The notes under the pieces were generated by a model that was given only the letters and a program-made list of their open reading frames with translations, had not been told where the DNA came from and searched no databases. Below, in pieces: positions 28,645-35,342 of a stretch of DNA of 64,000 bases. The DNA is from Prosthecobacter sp. SYSU 5D2 (lineage in GTDB: Bacteria; Verrucomicrobiota; Verrucomicrobiia; Verrucomicrobiales; Verrucomicrobiaceae): positions 62,001 to 126,000 of the forward strand of contig NZ_JBBYXL010000011.1 in assembly GCF_039655865.1 (NCBI RefSeq), written 5' to 3'. The number at the start of each line of letters is the position of its first letter. Position 1 is the stretch's first letter. A program made the translations under genes and the position numbers.

Positions 28645-29622
28645 TTAAAAATGATTCAAAAGCTGACGTTTGTCAGTGATTGGACGTCCAGCCGCCAGCC
28701 AGCGGTCATAGGCTGCCCAGCTCTGCTGCAGCAGCGCGTGCGCCTCCGCCGCCGGGTTGGCCGACCCGACCACCGTCACCACCATGCGGTGGCGGTAGAT
28801 CAGACTGGAGCCGTCCGGCTGCTTAGTCACCGAGGCCGGGCGCTCCGCTGTGACCACGATGCAGCCGCCCGAACGCGGAGTGGAGGTATATTTGATACCG
28901 TCAATGCTGGAGACCCCCAGCAATTGATTGGTATTGTTCAGCGGCAGGCTCACCTGGCCGGCCGGCCGGTACACAGTGATATCACGGGACCGCTGGTTGG
29001 TGTAAAAGCGCAGGGCCGGACGTGAAATGGCATACAGCCCCAGACGGGTCATATCCGCAGCAGTCGAGTACGGAGCCGTGCGCGTGTTCTCAAAACCGTG
29101 CGGATTGGTGAACCGTGTATTGGTAGCCCCTTCACGCACCGCCAGCTGGTTCATCTGGCGCACAAACTCATTCATTGGCTCGCCCCCGCGCTGCAGACGC
29201 TGAAGATGGTCGCGTCCCACAAAATCCCCAAGGGTGATGGCCGCAATGTCATCCGCCGTCATCATCGTGGCATAGATGAGGTCGCGAAGCGTCAGCCGGT
29301 CCCCAGGTTGCAACCCCAAAGTGTTGCTCCCGGCAATCTGCGGCGCATAGGCGGGCACCGTCGCCAGGATGTTCACTCCGGCCTTGGAGGCCTCCGCCCA
29401 GTCCAGAGTCACCATCGCCGTGGCGATTTTAGCCAGCCCGCCCACCGCTCGTTTGTCATTGGCCTGGCTGGCCACATGGATTTTGCGGTTAAAGCTGTCC
29501 GCCGCCAAAACCGCTGACTGGCCCAGGGCAGACCCGGGAGTCAGGACAAGCCAGGCACTGCCGAGGCAGAGGCTGGCGAAGACGCATTTTGAGAGGGGTA
29601 AAAAGCGGGGGAAACGCAGCAT
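28645..29622 (-). CDS. PBP5-like D-Ala-D-Ala carboxypeptidase homolog with degenerate active site
   Basis: This secreted protein has about 325 residues: signal peptide (MLRFPRFLPLSKCVFASLCLG and so on) and a peptidase S11-like domain. Family landmarks such as NPHGFENTRTAPYSTAADM are intact. However, the SxxK motif reads GLAK (G62 to K65), the SxN motif reads TADD and the KTG region reads KYT, so all three catalytic motifs have lost key residues while the general Lys remains. It is probably not a penicillin-binding hydrolase but a binding or scaffold protein. The frame also opens from 29661; ATG 29622 gives the better leader. No operon partner is evident. Confidence 0.75.
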   Translation of the reverse strand: MLRFPRFLPLSKCVFASLCLGSAWLVLTPGSALGQSAVLAADSFNRKIHVASQANDKRAVGGLAKIATAMVTLDWAEASKAGVNILATVPAYAPQIAGSNTLGLQPGDRLTLRDLIYATMMTADDIAAITLGDFVGRDHLQRLQRGGEPMNEFVRQMNQLAVREGATNTRFTNPHGFENTRTAPYSTAADMTRLGLYAISRPALRFYTNQRSRDITVYRPAGQVSLPLNNTNQLLGVSSIDGIKYTSTPRSGGCIVVTAERPASVTKQPDGSSLIYRHRMVVTVVGSANPAAEAHALLQQSWAAYDRWLAAGRPITDKRQLLNHF

Positions 29623-29837
29623 AGGGCACCCTCTCCTTAGCACCTCATCGCCCAGGGGCAACCGGGGATTGTCACCTCTTCACCTTCCACAAAAGCCGTC
29701 TCCCCCCCTGATTCACCCGTCTTATAATTTGATGCCACAGGCCAGCCTCAACGCAACTCACCGGCCAAGCGCGCGCACCCCTCCGTTCAAGGTTCAGAAC
29801 ATGCCTAGGGAGCAGTCAACCTTTACCATTTCCATAA

Positions 29838-30974
29838 TCACTCCACCGCACGCACCCGCAATCGTCGCAGGGAAAACAGTTCTCCTTCACACTCATTTAG
29901 ATGCCGGGCTCCATCCTTGCGCTTGGGGCCAAAAAGTGAACGATTTTCCTGGAACACGCTTTCGACAAACTCCTTGCTGCCCAGGACGAGGCCATCGCTG
30001 AAGTAGCGCACCCGCAGGCGGATGAGTTCGGCCGGACTCAGCTTGCCTTTTTCAGCCAGCACTTCCCGCGCCTTCTCCACGCTGATTCCTGGCCGGGCGA
30101 TGTTCTCATTTTGGGCATCGCGCACCTCAATTCCGCTGGCGAACAGGAGGCTCCGGTAGGCGTCGCCAGCATCATGCGTCTTCCATCCGTCCACCGGTTT
30201 GGCGACGGCTTTGCATAGGCCGCGCTGCGCCCGTCGGCTGCCGCTGAGGGCTTCGGCATACCCGCACCAGCGGTAGTCTTTGGGATCCTCGACGAGATTG
30301 GCGCGGACGGGGTTCAGGTCAATATAGGCGGCCATCGTCCGCAAGGCTTCGCCCCCGCTTTCCACCATGACGCTTTTGAAACGGTCCATCCACAAAGTGC
30401 CTTTTCGGCCCTGGCGCTTGTTGAACCAGCGGCTGAAGCGTTCTTTGACTTCCTTGACGAAAATGGACAGGTCGCAAAACCGCTTCTTGATCGCCTTCAG
30501 TTTCTCCTGGACGCGATTTTCCATGCCCATTCGGCGAAGCTCCGACAGGTCCTGACGCAGGAGCCCAACATAGGTTTTGCTGTAGAGTATGGACAGGTGT
30601 TCCAAGAGCTTCTCTTCTCCTTCTGAACCAGAGAACCGCTCCAGCCAGGCGTCCCTCCTGGGCACTTCCACCAGCAAATGAAAGTGGTTCCCCATGAGGC
30701 AATAGGTGACCAGCTTCACCCCGCAAAAGTCCGCCAGCCGCCACATCAGCCGCTTGAGCGCCTCCTTCTCCACCTCATCAAAAAAGACCTCGCCGCCGCA
30801 GGTGCGCGACATGACGTGGTAGCAATAGCTTTCATAGGGTCCCTTTCCCACGACCCGCTTCCGGCCGCCTGACCAGGACCGCGCGGCAGGATAGGGAGCC
30901 GTCTTCGCATTCACTCCAACGAGCTGGGCTTCCAGTTCATCGCGTTGCGGATCAATGGTTTGAGTCGCTTTCAT
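29838..30974 (-). CDS. IS200-like / Y1 transposase (Transposase_17)
   Basis: This 378-residue protein has a Y1 transposase domain at about 45-240. The HUH motif is H97-F-H99 in MGNHFHLLVEVP, and candidate Tyr lies in AAYIDLNPVRANLV. The C-terminal 130 residues are an extension common in this subgroup. This is a different lineage from the RAYT at 8.4 kb. No REP copies flank it, but a 7-bp stem hairpin lies just upstream of its start (31057-31075). It appears full length and may be active or domesticated. Confidence 0.85.
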   Translation of the reverse strand: MKATQTIDPQRDELEAQLVGVNAKTAPYPAARSWSGGRKRVVGKGPYESYCYHVMSRTCGGEVFFDEVEKEALKRLMWRLADFCGVKLVTYCLMGNHFHLLVEVPRRDAWLERFSGSEGEEKLLEHLSILYSKTYVGLLRQDLSELRRMGMENRVQEKLKAIKKRFCDLSIFVKEVKERFSRWFNKRQGRKGTLWMDRFKSVMVESGGEALRTMAAYIDLNPVRANLVEDPKDYRWCGYAEALSGSRRAQRGLCKAVAKPVDGWKTHDAGDAYRSLLFASGIEVRDAQNENIARPGISVEKAREVLAEKGKLSPAELIRLRVRYFSDGLVLGSKEFVESVFQENRSLFGPKRKDGARHLNECEGELFSLRRLRVRAVE

Positions 30975-31056
30975 GAAGCGAAATTAGCAGGAATTGGGGC
31001 TAACGTCAAGCACTGTATGCCTGGCATCTTTTTTTCAACCTCTTGTTAGACCTGGC

Positions 31057-31075
31057 TCCGCCGCAGCGCGGCGGA
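31057..31075. repeat. Hairpin upstream of the Y1 transposase gene
   Basis: TCCGCCG and CGGCGGA pair around CAGCG. Y1 enzymes recognise subterminal hairpins, so this could mark an element end, but no matching partner was found on the other side. Confidence 0.4.
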
Positions 31076-31153
31076 TGGCTTGAAGACCCACTATGCCCAC
31101 GTCCCAAGACCACTTCGCCGGTGAGATTTGTGCCATAAAGACAAACTTCGTGA

Positions 31154-31555
31154 CTAAGGCTTAAGCTCTTGCTTAACCCAATCAATATCTCTATCGAGCG
31201 CAGTATGAATATTAAAATTTTCCATCACAAACAACCTGCCATCGTTGCTTGGATTTTTTCCATAACTCCACGCAACAAAACGTCGGGAATTTCGTACGTT
31301 TTTTAATGAGCGTAAATCAGGGGGCAAATAAACTATTTCATCAAAGTATGCGGCTGCTCCCGGCATTTGTATCAACTGCTCTCTTGTCGGAAACACATAA
31401 TTATCTTGGTAAGGTATCTGAGCTAAAAAAAGAGCAAATTCACGTGCGACAGACTTATTCCTTTCCCATTCAACCTTTTTCTCCAAAGAAATCGATGTCT
31501 TGAATGTGAGAAAAACAATCAGCATCCCAATCCCAAATAAAATCATGTATTTCAT
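31154..31555 (-). CDS. Small membrane protein, candidate immunity protein of the RHS tip
   Basis: This 133-residue protein has one N-terminal hydrophobic segment (MKYMILFGIGMLIVFLTF). A soluble domain rich in aromatic and charged residues follows, with no recognised family. The ATG at 31555 overlaps the RHS stop codon (TGATG), so translation is coupled. The DNA is markedly AT-rich like the RHS tip. Small genes directly after an RHS toxin tip are usually immunity proteins, and the membrane anchor fits a toxin acting in the envelope or periplasm. This role is inferred from position only. Confidence 0.6.
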   Translation of the reverse strand: MKYMILFGIGMLIVFLTFKTSISLEKKVEWERNKSVAREFALFLAQIPYQDNYVFPTREQLIQMPGAAAYFDEIVYLPPDLRSLKNVRNSRRFVAWSYGKNPSNDGRLFVMENFNIHTALDRDIDWVKQELKP

Positions 31556-33687
31556 CACATCCCCCCCGAAAGAATCGGTTTTGAATTACTGTATTTTTTA
31601 CCTGGAGTATTGGTGGGTAGCTTTTTACCACAAGGCTTACAGGGCAATTTTTCGATCAAATCAAGGTACTGGCTCATTTCTTTTTTCAGTTCATAAGGTG
31701 TGATCGAGCGGGAGGGATCAAGGTACGGCCCCGCCGCCCTAGAGCCAGCCGCATATGCCCCCTTCTGGTTTAATCCTTCTAAACCTTGACCTTTTGCAAG
31801 ATTATTAATTTCCGCACCATCATTCCTAATCCCCGGCGGAACCTTCATCATCTTGCTCACAAATCCATAAAGAATATTATTCATCGTCCACTTGCTAACA
31901 CACTTATCTAAGAGCATATAAGTATCTTTACACCCTTCGCCAGCGCATCCTTCGAGCAACTCTTTTGAAGGCGCTGGCATTGCATCTATATTCACTCCAT
32001 TGCGTAAAAGGAAAAGAGCACCATCAATCGGTCCCTTTTCTGAACTCGGCAAATTAATGTGAGACAAATAAACCTTCATCAGTTCCAACATGAACCAATC
32101 GGTGGCATCTGGACCACACTTGCATAAACCTAAATAATCCCACCGATTCACCGGATCATTGCCCACCATCCCGTAGAGGTTGATGCCGCCTCGTTCCTCA
32201 ATGGGGTCCCGGCTGATCCACCTCCCCATTTCCGGCGCATAGTATCTGTAGCCGTAGTACAACATCCCACTCTCCGAGTCCTCATACTTCGTGCTGAAAG
32301 CAAAGGGCGGACGCTCCAGCCACTCGGCTCCCACACCCAGGTCGCGCTGCTTCTGGTTACGCACCACCCGCACCTCGTCTTCCACCAGCAGTTTGCCGAA
32401 GGCATCGTACTCCAGACGGTGCAGCGGCAATGGCTGCGTGCCGTCGTTTTCCAACCAGCCCATGACGTTGCCATTGCCGTCATACCAGGGGGCAAGCTGG
32501 CGGTTGCTCCCGGTCACGCCCGGGACATACTCCGCCACCCACAGCAGGCCGCCGACGCCGCCTGCCCCGCCGAGTGTGCCATTGACGTCCATCCCCCACA
32601 GATAGCTGCGGCGCAGGCTCAGCGGGCCGCCGGAGCTCATCCGCACCAGCTCCGCCAGCAGCGTCCAGTCCTGCCAGATAAACACCGTCTCACGGGAAAA
32701 CGTCCAGCCTGGGGACTGCAAAGTACCGTTCGGGGATTTGATGCCAGTGAGGACCCGCTTGGCGATCCGACGCCCCAATCCGTCATAGACAAATTCCAGT
32801 CGCTTCACCGCCTTGGCTCCTTCACCGCTGACCCCTGGGTATGCCTGCTCCTGTGAGACGAGACGGTTTTCCGCATCACAGGCATAGGTCCACACGCCGT
32901 CAGAGGCCAGGTTGCCCTGGAGATTGAATTGCCGGGCCGTGGGAATGCGGGGAAAAGTCACCACCTGGGTTTGCGACAGCGGGGCGGGCTGGAGATCCGG
33001 CCTCCCTGCACTGATGACCACCTGCTGGGGAGCAGGGATGGCAGGAAGGTTCAGCCGGTAGCGCCAGAGTTCGCCCTCACGCTCGGCCGTGGCCTCCCCA
33101 ACTTTCACCAGGGCATCCGGATTGGCCCGCCCGCGCAACCAGCGCCAGGAGGGTTTGGTATTGGTGAGCTGATATTCGCCCGTGGTTCCGGCCAGCTGGA
33201 AGGCATATGACAACCCATTCCCATCGGGGGTGTAGGTGTAGGTGAGGTCGCCCATGTTGTTGTAGCTGTAGTCATGGCTCCAGTCGGGCCTCAGGCTGGA
33301 GTCCGCCACGCGCTCGCGCCGGACCTCATCCAGCTCCCCGCGGTCATTGTAATCGTACCGCAGCCGGGTGCCGTCATGCCGGGTTTCAAGGGTCCGCCGT
33401 CCAGCCGTGTTCAGTTCGTAGTCATAAGAGGCGGTGACGGCAGAGCCGCGCGTCCACTGAACCGCATCCAGCCGCGACTGGACATCCCAGCCCCAGGTGC
33501 CGACAAGGGCCTGGCCGCCAGCCAGGGGACGCGTGAGCGTGTGCAGCCGAGGGCTGTCGGGGTAATGTGCATAGGCGGCCTCTGCCAGAAGGGGGGCATT
33601 CACAGGCTGTAGTTTAGCCGTTTCCATGCGGTCATGCGAGTCATAAGTGTAAACGCTGCGGTGGGCCGTGCCGGCAAGCGAAGGCAC
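31555..33687 (-). CDS. RHS-repeat protein fragment with C-terminal polymorphic tip (candidate toxin)
   Basis: This 710-residue frame contains RHS/YD repeats (YTYDSHDRM, YDYNDRGELDEV and others, about 10-400). The RHS-associated core follows at about 450-530 (YEDSESGMLYYGYRYYAPEMG, WISRDPIEE, NLYGMVGNDPVNRWDYLGL). After the core, about 180 residues form an unrecognised tip with several cysteines (CKCG, CAGEGC, PCKPCGKK). The DNA of the tip is AT-rich, unlike the core. The frame has no secretion leader. It begins at a GTG inside a 14-bp palindrome (33681-33694) only 24 bases after hslR, with a stop codon three codons upstream, so it is N-terminally truncated against full RHS proteins. It could be an orphan RHS-CT cassette. 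Confidence 0.75.
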   Translation of the reverse strand: MPSLAGTAHRSVYTYDSHDRMETAKLQPVNAPLLAEAAYAHYPDSPRLHTLTRPLAGGQALVGTWGWDVQSRLDAVQWTRGSAVTASYDYELNTAGRRTLETRHDGTRLRYDYNDRGELDEVRRERVADSSLRPDWSHDYSYNNMGDLTYTYTPDGNGLSYAFQLAGTTGEYQLTNTKPSWRWLRGRANPDALVKVGEATAEREGELWRYRLNLPAIPAPQQVVISAGRPDLQPAPLSQTQVVTFPRIPTARQFNLQGNLASDGVWTYACDAENRLVSQEQAYPGVSGEGAKAVKRLEFVYDGLGRRIAKRVLTGIKSPNGTLQSPGWTFSRETVFIWQDWTLLAELVRMSSGGPLSLRRSYLWGMDVNGTLGGAGGVGGLLWVAEYVPGVTGSNRQLAPWYDGNGNVMGWLENDGTQPLPLHRLEYDAFGKLLVEDEVRVVRNQKQRDLGVGAEWLERPPFAFSTKYEDSESGMLYYGYRYYAPEMGRWISRDPIEERGGINLYGMVGNDPVNRWDYLGLCKCGPDATDWFMLELMKVYLSHINLPSSEKGPIDGALFLLRNGVNIDAMPAPSKELLEGCAGEGCKDTYMLLDKCVSKWTMNNILYGFVSKMMKVPPGIRNDGAEINNLAKGQGLEGLNQKGAYAAGSRAAGPYLDPSRSITPYELKKEMSQYLDLIEKLPCKPCGKKLPTNTPGKKYSNSKPILSGGM

Positions 33688-33711
33688 GTGCCTTCATTCT
33701 ATTTTCACCAT

Positions 33712-34119
33712 TTACATCGAGTGATTTTGCTCTTCCCATTCCCGCAGCTGGCGGAGTTGCTGCTTGTTAGGCTTGGTCAGCATTTCGTGTTCACGCGGGG
33801 TCTCCAGCTCCTTCTGCCGCCGCAGTTCCGCCGCTTTTTGGATCCATTCCAAAGGCGTCAGGTTTTCATAAAAATCCGCCACCTGGGGGGCGCTGAGCCG
33901 ACGGGGCGCAAAGGCAGTCACCTTTAATCTGATCAGCAGGTCGCCGCGCACCACCTCCAGGATGTCCCCTGCCCGCAGATCCCGCGCGGGTTTCACGGGC
34001 TTGCCGTCCAGGGTGACATTGCCTTTGGTGCACGATTGCGTGGACAAGCTGCGGGTCTTGAAAATCCGCACATGATGCAGCCACTTGTCTGCCCGCTGCG
34101 TCTGGACCGGCTCACTCAT
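33712..34119 (-). CDS. hslR: S4-domain RNA-binding protein, Hsp15-like
   Basis: This 135-residue protein has an N-terminal S4 domain (about 8-70; RADKWLHHVRIFKTRSLSTQ, GNVTLDGKPVKPARDLRAGDILEV). The family includes Hsp15, which binds 50S subunits carrying stalled nascent chains. The C-terminal half is charged and helical, typical of the group. It overlaps the rsmB stop by four bases (ATGA), so the two are translationally coupled and share an operon. Confidence 0.85.
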   Translation of the reverse strand: MSEPVQTQRADKWLHHVRIFKTRSLSTQSCTKGNVTLDGKPVKPARDLRAGDILEVVRGDLLIRLKVTAFAPRRLSAPQVADFYENLTPLEWIQKAAELRRQKELETPREHEMLTKPNKQQLRQLREWEEQNHSM

Positions 34120-35342
34120 GCTTTCTTCACCAGCCGCGCGGCAAAGGCACCGTCCGTTTGCTCCTTGGGGGGAAAGATGAGGCGGCTTTCCAGCAGTTCC
34201 ATTTCAGGATGCGCTTCGAGGATGGCTTTGACCACTCCCTGGTTTTCATCCGGATCAATGCTGCACGTGCTATAGACAAGAGAGCCGCCCGGCTTCAAAA
34301 ACCGCAGGGCGGATTTCACCAACCGGAGCTGCACATCCGCCAGGGCGGCAAATTCCTCCTCCTGCAGCCTCCAGCGCACATCAATCCGCCGGCGCATGAC
34401 CCCGGAGTTGGAGCAGGGCACATCCAGCAGGATGCGGTCAAACAGCAGATCCCCGAATGGCGGCGGCGAATCTCCCAGCAGATCAAAAGTATGCACATGG
34501 GCGATGCGCACCTTCAGCCGCGTCAGGTTCTCCCGCAGACGCGTCAAGCGAAGGGGGGAAGAATCGCAGGCAAAAATGCGGCCCTCATTGCACATGATCT
34601 CCGCCAGCAGAGCCGTCTTGCCGCCCGGTGCCGCACAGGCGTCCAGTACATTCTCACCGGGCTTCGGCGCCAGCATCCGCGGGGCATGCGCCGTGCTCGG
34701 GTCCTGCGCATAGCAGAGACCGTGCTTCAGGGCCTCACGCGGTGCGCTTTCGCATTGGTAAAAACCTTCGCCAATGTCTGTCAGTTCCGGCATTTTGGCC
34801 AGCCGCCCGGCCGCCTCTTCATTGAGTCCGTTCAGCCGCACAAACACAGGCGGCGGCTCCTGGTTCCACTGGCACAAGGCTTCAGCTTTTGCCTTGCCCA
34901 TGATTTTAATCCACCGGCGCACCAGAAATTCCGGGTGGGAATACTTCACCGCCAGAGGCTGCTCCTCCACCAGCGCCTTAAGCCTGGCTTCTTCCCGTCC
35001 CGCCCGGCGCAGCACTGCATTCACCAGCGCACCGGAGCGCCCCGCCGCAGCCACGGTCTCATTTACGGCTGCATGGGACGGCACCCCCAGCAGGAGGAGC
35101 TGGCAGAGGCCTATCCTTAGCAGCCAGCGTGTGCGATGATCCAGATGCTTGCCATCCGTGAGCTGGTCCGCCCAAAAGTCCAGCAGGCTCAAATGGCGCA
35201 ACGTCGTAAAAACGATGTCATGCAGAAATGCCGAGTTCGGCGGCGAGAGCACCGCACGGCGCACCCGTTCGTCCAGCAGGTCGGTGGCGAAGCGTCCGGA
35301 TTTTTGCCAGTCGGTCAGCACATCCAGGGAATGGTGGCGCAC
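34116..35342 (-). CDS. rsmB: RsmB: 16S rRNA cytosine methyltransferase
   Basis: This 408-residue protein has an N-terminal NusB-like helical domain (about 5-140) and a class I methyltransferase domain. That domain contains LDACAAPGGKTALLAEIM (SAM site), DVPCSNSG (one of the two cysteines) and VYSTCSIDPDENQ (the catalytic TCS motif). It methylates C967 of 16S rRNA in E. coli numbering. It is translationally coupled to hslR. The ugd gene lies 98 bases upstream in the same direction. Confidence 0.93.
   Translation of the reverse strand: MRHHSLDVLTDWQKSGRFATDLLDERVRRAVLSPPNSAFLHDIVFTTLRHLSLLDFWADQLTDGKHLDHRTRWLLRIGLCQLLLLGVPSHAAVNETVAAAGRSGALVNAVLRRAGREEARLKALVEEQPLAVKYSHPEFLVRRWIKIMGKAKAEALCQWNQEPPPVFVRLNGLNEEAAGRLAKMPELTDIGEGFYQCESAPREALKHGLCYAQDPSTAHAPRMLAPKPGENVLDACAAPGGKTALLAEIMCNEGRIFACDSSPLRLTRLRENLTRLKVRIAHVHTFDLLGDSPPPFGDLLFDRILLDVPCSNSGVMRRRIDVRWRLQEEEFAALADVQLRLVKSALRFLKPGGSLVYSTCSIDPDENQGVVKAILEAHPEMELLESRLIFPPKEQTDGAFAARLVKKA

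Follow-up and report, generated by a model that had tools for sequence, protein, structure and literature searches.

A probable orphan RHS toxin–immunity cassette at an isolated site in Prosthecobacter sp. SYSU 5D2

Orphan toxin tips are thought to be a stock on which polymorphic toxins draw when they switch weapons. Two kinds of described system come close to the locus reported here, a short RHS gene followed by a small membrane-protein gene in a 64,000-nucleotide stretch of the Prosthecobacter sp. SYSU 5D2 genome (contig NZ_JBBYXL010000011.1; G000:C11:62001-126000 in our numbering), hereafter the window. The orphan rhs-CT/rhsI and cdiA-CT/cdiI modules, in the parts of Poole et al. (2011; PMC3150448) cited here, likewise consist of a core fragment, a variable tip and a small downstream gene, with no part for delivery. 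The displacement of C-terminal rhs tips, as set out in the cited sections of Jackson et al. (2009; PMC2935791), likewise involves core fragments of varying length and low-GC tips, and the example of 67.7% versus 46.4% G+C given there resembles the 63.3% versus 43.9% of core and tip in the window. It is in position that the locus departs from both: in those same sections the modules lie in arrays beside full-length genes (PMC3150448) and the displaced tips stay downstream at the same locus (PMC2935791), whereas the window cassette is found at another site, alone between an hsp15-like and a dac-like gene and accompanied by a REP-associated tyrosine transposase-like (RAYT-like) gene. An array position behind a full-length rhs gene is, in our view, usual for orphan modules and not defining; the orphan rhs-CT/immunity cassette is a known kind, and its lone placement is what differs.

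How tips move is treated as an unsettled matter in the passages cited from this literature. The origin of the circular intermediate in tip displacement is left open (PMC2935791), the mechanism of orphan-tip exchange is called unknown (PMC3150448), and no evidence for an integrase was known for Vibrio effector–immunity insertion (PMC5361080). The window gives two handles on tip exchange, namely a cassette at a new site for which an empty site exists and an element that recurs behind unrelated cassettes. New beyond the orphan-cassette reading are the isolated site with its empty-site comparison, a remote link of the tip to Ntox44, the membrane-protein neighbours of related tips and the shared 3′ element.

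The RHS fragment and its insertion site

We read the locus as most probably an orphan (displaced) RHS C-terminal cassette with its immunity gene, standing at a new site together with the RAYT-like gene; the tip would be the toxin and the small downstream gene, here called the partner, its immunity protein (Table 1). The RHS gene is truncated. The sister genome G002 encodes a 2,100-residue RHS protein, and residues 3-526 of the window product match its residues 1396-1917 at 61%, so that about 1,395 N-terminal residues are missing. Besides the core domain, the remaining protein has an RHS repeat (PF05593, E = 1.4e-5). Similarity to the G002 protein stops at residue 526, just inside the tip, and GC is 0.633 for the core but drops to 0.439 for the tip and 0.381 for the partner gene (window GC, 0.587). 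The partner was called as an open reading frame (ORF) at 31154-31558 on the minus strand; with the likely ATG at 31555 the protein has 133 residues and its start overlaps the RHS stop as TGATG, and an open run of this length arose in none of 2,000 base shuffles of its 402 nt. An earlier interpretation made from the letters alone (the sequence-only reading) had proposed an orphan, N-terminally truncated RHS gene coupled to a candidate immunity gene, and the core match, the G002 alignment and the overlap agree with it. It had also described a cysteine-containing tip in AT-rich DNA beginning at about residue 530; the description stands, and the start is better drawn at residue 519.

Table 1. Features of the locus, in window coordinates
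Feature	Position	Strand	Evidence and remarks
Inserted segment	29672..33711	.	About 4.04 kb between hsp15 and the dac-like gene; missing there in G006 and G002; limits approximate
RHS protein fragment, N-terminally truncated, 710 residues, GTG start	31555..33687	-	ORF; 61% to residues 1396-1917 of the 2,100-residue G002 RHS
RHS-associated core domain, residues 427-521, forming the conserved core end	32125..32409	-	TIGR03696 Rhs_assc_core, E = 2.2e-22
C-terminal tip, residues 519-710 (192 residues), cysteine-patterned candidate toxin domain	31555..32133	-	Low GC; conserved cysteines; profiles of relatives
Partner, 133-residue single-pass membrane protein, candidate immunity protein	31154..31555	-	ATG overlaps the RHS stop
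Shared 3′ element	31037..31125	-	Box 31075-31088, then GC hairpin 31058-31074; Found twice in own genome (E ≤ 0.01) and in 15 intergenic copies across 8 of 48 genomes
Y1/REP-associated tyrosine transposase (RAYT-like) gene, in the inserted segment	29838..30974	-	PF01797, E = 7.3e-11; NF047646, E = 4.2e-16
hsp15-like S4-domain gene	33712..34119	-	One flank of the segment; ends 24 bp before the RHS start and runs in the same direction
dac-like gene	28645..29661	-	Other flank of the segment

The inserted segment holds the RHS fragment, the partner gene, the intergenic element and the RAYT-like gene, and the RHS frame begins 24 bp past the hsp15 stop, which is at the junction itself. In two relatives, G006 and G002, locus comparison shows hsp15 followed directly by the dac-like gene, which we take to encode a D-alanyl-D-alanine carboxypeptidase-like protein, and then by pfk. 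This empty site supports the suggestion of the sequence-only reading that the locus could act as a recombination cassette. Of the 48 genomes from the genus, 43 have a match to hsp15, and its locus was obtained for 30, the window's own included; the dac-like gene adjoins it in two of the 29 others (G006 and G002) and was not found within flanks of up to 1.5 kb in the remaining 27. Between 30800 and 34000 no Rfam family matched, even at a threshold of E = 1, and PADLOC and a tblastn search of plasmids gave nothing.

According to the preferred reading, the C-terminal part of an RHS toxin, of a kind that is still full-length and carries a leader in the sister species, would have moved to the new site together with tip and partner. 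A hydrophobic leader is visible by eye near the start of the G002 protein, and none was seen in the sequence of the window fragment. Because it lacks a leader and retains only a portion of the core, the fragment is probably not deliverable in its present form. We found no evidence for the idea that it might be secreted with help: no leader is seen, and most of the core is missing. The cassette may persist as a store of immunity, perhaps by read-through from rsmB-hsp15 lying 24 bp upstream, and it would also be donor DNA that could recombine onto a full-length RHS core.

The segment might conceivably be in decay, an RHS fragment without function that arrived as a passenger of the RAYT-like gene and whose tip and partner are no longer active, and we regard this as doubtful. 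Such decay would fit the missing leader, the loss of most of the core, the lack of any sigma-70-like site on the minus strand from 30900 to 34200, and the finding that neither tip nor partner is matched at E ≤ 0.01 in any of the genus's other 47 genomes. Both frames are nevertheless intact and keep their start–stop overlap, and the tip still has, from the tip set described below, the N..G pair and all six invariant cysteines.

The cysteine-patterned tip and its relation to Ntox44

No match to the tip was found in Pfam, NCBIfam or PDB, or in a search of IMG/VR, and the tip appears to be undescribed; the sequence-only reading had not recognised its family and had thought it possibly new. A first search with it covered 387 genomes of the phylum and gave matches in 21 at E ≤ 0.1, the window's own genome included. 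From the 20 others, three loci were kept (L007, L009 and L021), whose RHS tips share the cysteine pattern of the window tip in alignment, and 17 (E 0.0035 to 0.098) were left out. The profile built from these four sequences returned 10 matches in eight of the 387 genomes: the four that are in the profile by construction, four new RHS tips, the Ntox44 protein L036, and L034. Invariant throughout the eight aligned tips are six cysteines and, in tip numbering, G2, G7, T11 and G90. The window tip is matched at E = 8.5e-11 by a profile of the seven other tips and at E = 7.9e-8 by a six-tip profile from which L009 was removed as well. The part of the window tip that scores in the profiles of its relatives is tip residues 63-171; the N-terminal CxCG..D.T stretch (-0.3 bits) brings no gain. 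With L034 set aside as a relative, the best other E value of the four multi-sequence profiles was 0.94 against a background of 3,381 ORFs, which is not neutral because some of its loci had been retrieved for their resemblance to the window tip. When the window tip is searched as a single sequence, L011, a locus fetched by tip similarity, outranks the relative L021 (E = 0.0015 and 0.0083, respectively). By these profile matches the window tip belongs to an unnamed set of eight cysteine-patterned RHS tips.

The same profiles extend to Ntox44 (PF15607). L036 is a bona fide Ntox44 protein (61.6 bits against a Pfam cut-off of 24) and is matched by the seven-tip profile at E = 9.8e-7 and by the six-tip profile at 5.8e-7, with a range across the tip profiles of 5.8e-7 to 2.4e-6. 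L034 (G254:C238:1587-1790, minus strand) is an Ntox44-like frame of 135 residues that scores 19.1 bits against the same cut-off and has a C...C pattern and a GNFLFSY stretch; it is matched by the four-tip profile at E = 3.6e-4 and by the four multi-sequence profiles at 0.0039-0.034. One of the eight tips, that of L009, has a sub-threshold Ntox44 match of its own (15.9 bits, E = 0.017).

These matches speak for an alternative that makes the tip a cytoplasmic toxin within the Ntox44 superfamily and treats the partner's membrane helix as incidental, an unlikely one in our judgement. The window tip alone misses L036 (E = 0.81) and has no Ntox44 match in Pfam, the gathering cut-off of 24 bits not being reached. 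The motifs described for Ntox44, in the section of PMC3482391 cited here, are DxK, GNxxxG and DxxxD. In the alignment the window tip has NIDAMPA where L036 has WDFK, it has no DxxxD where L009 has DYSYD, and at the GNxxxG position its NNILYG keeps the N and the second G (L009, GNILYG; L021, GNLMYG). The likeness is distant and at profile level, around a C..C...T....C...N...G stretch; the differences are the extra invariant cysteines of the window tip, its failure to match the Pfam model and the absence of DxK and DxxxD. The genes next to the tips moreover mostly encode membrane proteins, and this includes the gene after L036, which has five predicted membrane segments. Given the missed cut-off, the lack of two of the three motifs and a GNxxxG retained only by half, we call the window tip a remote relative of Ntox44 and reject its membership. 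A separate Pfam match of the whole RHS protein to Ntox44 at residues 136-179 (E = 0.11) lies in the core and was rejected as chance.

Membrane-protein partners of the tips

A single membrane segment is predicted in the partner (highest Kyte-Doolittle mean over 19 residues, 2.05), which has no match in Pfam, NCBIfam or PDB. Among the ORFs around the seven related tips no homologue of it was detectable (best E = 0.23). The neighbours nonetheless agree in kind: a gene with one or more predicted membrane segments follows the tip, at a gap of -24 to 121 nt, in seven of the eight cases, and in six of seven when only the distant relatives are taken. The association that the sequence-only reading drew between tip and downstream gene cannot be followed directly into other strains, tip and partner being unmatched at E ≤ 0.01 in the other 47 genomes of the genus; the distant neighbours show no detectable homology to the partner, yet are predicted membrane proteins in all but one case.

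Since the next gene encodes a predicted membrane protein after seven of eight tips, the tip may be a toxin acting at or in the cell envelope, with the membrane partner as its putative immunity protein, and it is to such an envelope-acting toxin that this small, unnamed tip set with its mostly membrane-protein neighbours points. Different membrane proteins would then neutralise related tips, which fits a toxin at or in the inner membrane or the periplasm, a setting in which the conserved cysteines could form disulphides. At least four membrane segments are predicted for four of seven partners of cysteine-patterned tips. Among the fetched loci 24 genes follow RHS-type tips of other kinds, and none of them has that many. 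This contrast is confounded by lineage: the four partners belong to distant lineages of the phylum, as do three of the 24 comparison genes, whereas the other 21 are from the window's genus. These neighbour counts exclude duplicates and any locus in which the tip or the gene after it was cut off by the end of the retrieved sequence. That the 133-residue gene is instead an unrelated membrane gene acquired by chance, with no role in immunity, we consider quite improbable: it lacks a family match and homology to ORFs near related tips, but it overlaps the RHS stop, is similarly low in GC and is unmatched elsewhere in the genus.

Several observations weigh against an orphan toxin–immunity cassette acting at the envelope. 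Orphan cassettes are usually placed beside a full-length rhs gene, and that of the window is alone. The empty-site argument rests on two genomes, G006 and G002, because the dac-like gene lies next to hsp15 in only two of the 29 others. Tip and partner of the window have no close relatives, and therefore their pairing cannot be seen twice. The structure prediction that had been suggested for the tip could be made and gave an AlphaFold model too poor to serve as a search query, as did that for the partner (mean predicted local distance difference test score, pLDDT, 53.5; partner, 50.4). One of the related tips, L035, has no partner within 250 nt, and the gene 308 nt past it is transposase-like in our reading. 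One or more membrane segments are also common behind other RHS tips (16 of 24), and the multi-segment contrast carries the difference in lineage just described. The window partner itself has one segment only, for which reason the case for an envelope toxin is weakest for the window itself.

The shared 3′ element, RAYT genes and other RHS genes

A 64-bp stretch past the window partner recurs at 92% behind an RHS cassette on contig C10, and the whole genome (5.87 Mb, 26 contigs) contains two copies at E ≤ 0.01, both behind short RHS cassettes. In the 48 genomes of the genus there are at least 19 matches in at least 12 genomes at this threshold, which is a lower bound as in most genomes 18 candidates of a first look were scored. 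Fifteen of the 19 matches listed (eight genomes; L071-L078 and L083-L089) are intergenic and behind a gene, and the other four (L079-L082; E 0.001 to 0.007) are inside unrelated genes. The box consensus GGTCTTCAAGCCAT is exact in six of the intergenic copies and has 1 to 3 changes in nine; in the coding matches it has one change (L081), two (L080), five and five, so that the box alone does not separate the two groups.

Twelve of the 15 intergenic copies are behind RHS-type cassettes, assigned by tblastn to the core or by reading of the core-end motif. One (G030:C29) is behind a SUKH-3 immunity gene (PF14433, E = 3.9e-15) and two (G030:C1 and G001:C14) are behind small genes without a Pfam match. 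In these the element keeps one orientation relative to the preceding cassette, but both copies of G044 sit between two convergent RHS-type genes, and at one of these (G044:C438) there is no partner ORF of 80 residues between tip and element. Comparison of the element loci by blastp (E ≤ 1e-3) shows similarity only among RHS genes, mostly short and near the core end, and none among the partner genes; in some pairs the similarity is longer, the RHS genes of G002 and G044:C35 sharing 188 residues, so some tips at these loci are related. The box lies 27-103 nt from the nearest preceding ORF in the eight of 13 copies for which this was computed, with one short overlapping ORF set aside; in two of the eight this ORF, of 63 or 84 residues, is unconfirmed, and 304 or 333 nt separate the box from the end of the tip.

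A long, strong hairpin is seen in the C10 copy, in G006:C1 and in both G044 copies, and a weak one or none in others, with z values from -4.2 to +1.2 against 100 base shuffles of each copy. A scan for intrinsic terminators lists none at the element. As hairpin strength varies in this way between copies, they establish neither a strong terminator nor a uniform fold. Groups of element loci have 100-410 bp in common from the element onward. At two unlinked RHS cassettes of G005, L073 and L083 are 84% identical over 411 bp from inside the element. A search of IMG/VR for the exact box pattern gave no match.

Integron attC sites have RYYYAAC...GTTRRRY ends that lie tens of bases apart and inner complementary boxes. 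The element resembles them in being short, partly palindromic and right behind a cassette gene, and some copies have GTCTAAC and GTTAGAT-like boxes. It differs in that only about 5 nt separate its boxes, which several copies lack altogether, and in the 1-3 copies found per genome; an identity with attC was rejected, GTCTAAC-AAGAG-GTTAG occurring only in some copies and with this spacing of 5 nt. The repetitive extragenic palindromic (REP) elements of RAYT genes are dispersed through a genome in many copies, and an identity with these was rejected as well, given two copies in 5.87 Mb at E ≤ 0.01 against 10 Y1_Tnp matches. The element may be a terminator or 3′ leader, a shared ancestral flank usable as a homology arm, or a recombination site, of which the first two are likelier. 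We think it rather unlikely that it is a dedicated tag of toxin–immunity cassettes, that is, a recombination or excision site at the 3′ end of a movable unit with any tip and immunity gene, possibly acted on by Y1-type (RAYT) transposases; if true, this would supply the missing mechanism by which RHS tips move between loci and species. No literature joining rhs with RAYT, or rhs toxin–immunity genes with an inverted-repeat cassette, was found in open-licence PubMed Central, and no wider search for the element was made.

The RAYT-like gene of the inserted segment scores 59.1 bits against NF047646, below the cut-off of 80. Of the 10 Y1_Tnp matches in its genome, one is this gene and one lies about 1 kb behind the C10 cassette. 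In a comparison of two RAYT queries and the fetched flanks, RAYT/Y1 genes lie beside RHS cassettes at four loci (window 29838-30974; L037:210-1268; L066:1-279 in G028; L050:2169-3299 in G038), those of G028 and G038 being relatives of the window RAYT-like gene. This adjacency is suggestive only, because the 48 genomes hold 480 Y1_Tnp matches (sum of per-genome counts).

Besides the window gene, the genome has four RHS places on contigs C10, C2 and C5. Full-length RHS genes elsewhere in the genome, for which the sequence-only reading had suggested a search, are represented by three large RHS-like frames (C10:6941, 3,042 residues; C2, 1,640; C5, 1,051) with short matches of 22-25 bits only, and the best relative of the same class is a short copy (C10:3296; 786-residue frame, 41%). 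The order on C10 is large RHS, a 177-residue gene and short RHS, like that of displaced cassettes, and G002 likewise has a full-length RHS gene, a small gene and a short RHS gene. The short C10 gene (L037:2727-5617, equal to C10:2727-5617) stops about 24 residues past the core; an overlapping 209-residue ORF in another frame may hold its tip, and the cassette may for this reason be frame-shifted.

Core matches at E ≤ 1e-30 occur in 15 of the 48 genomes, the window's own included. Further short genes, which we call mini-RHS genes (L125:2035-2490, L126:6751-7767, L078 in G044:C438, and L128:2-1060), are made up of a hydrophobic leader, some tens of residues, a core-end motif (GPNLYAYV.QNPW.. or similar) and a tip; RHS repeats were not seen in them by eye, nor by Pfam in the L126 gene. 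In Lentisphaerae bacterium WC36 (L069) and a Victivallaceae metagenome-assembled genome (L068), RHS core fragments stand in tandem, each with a different tip and a small membrane-protein or secreted-looking gene.

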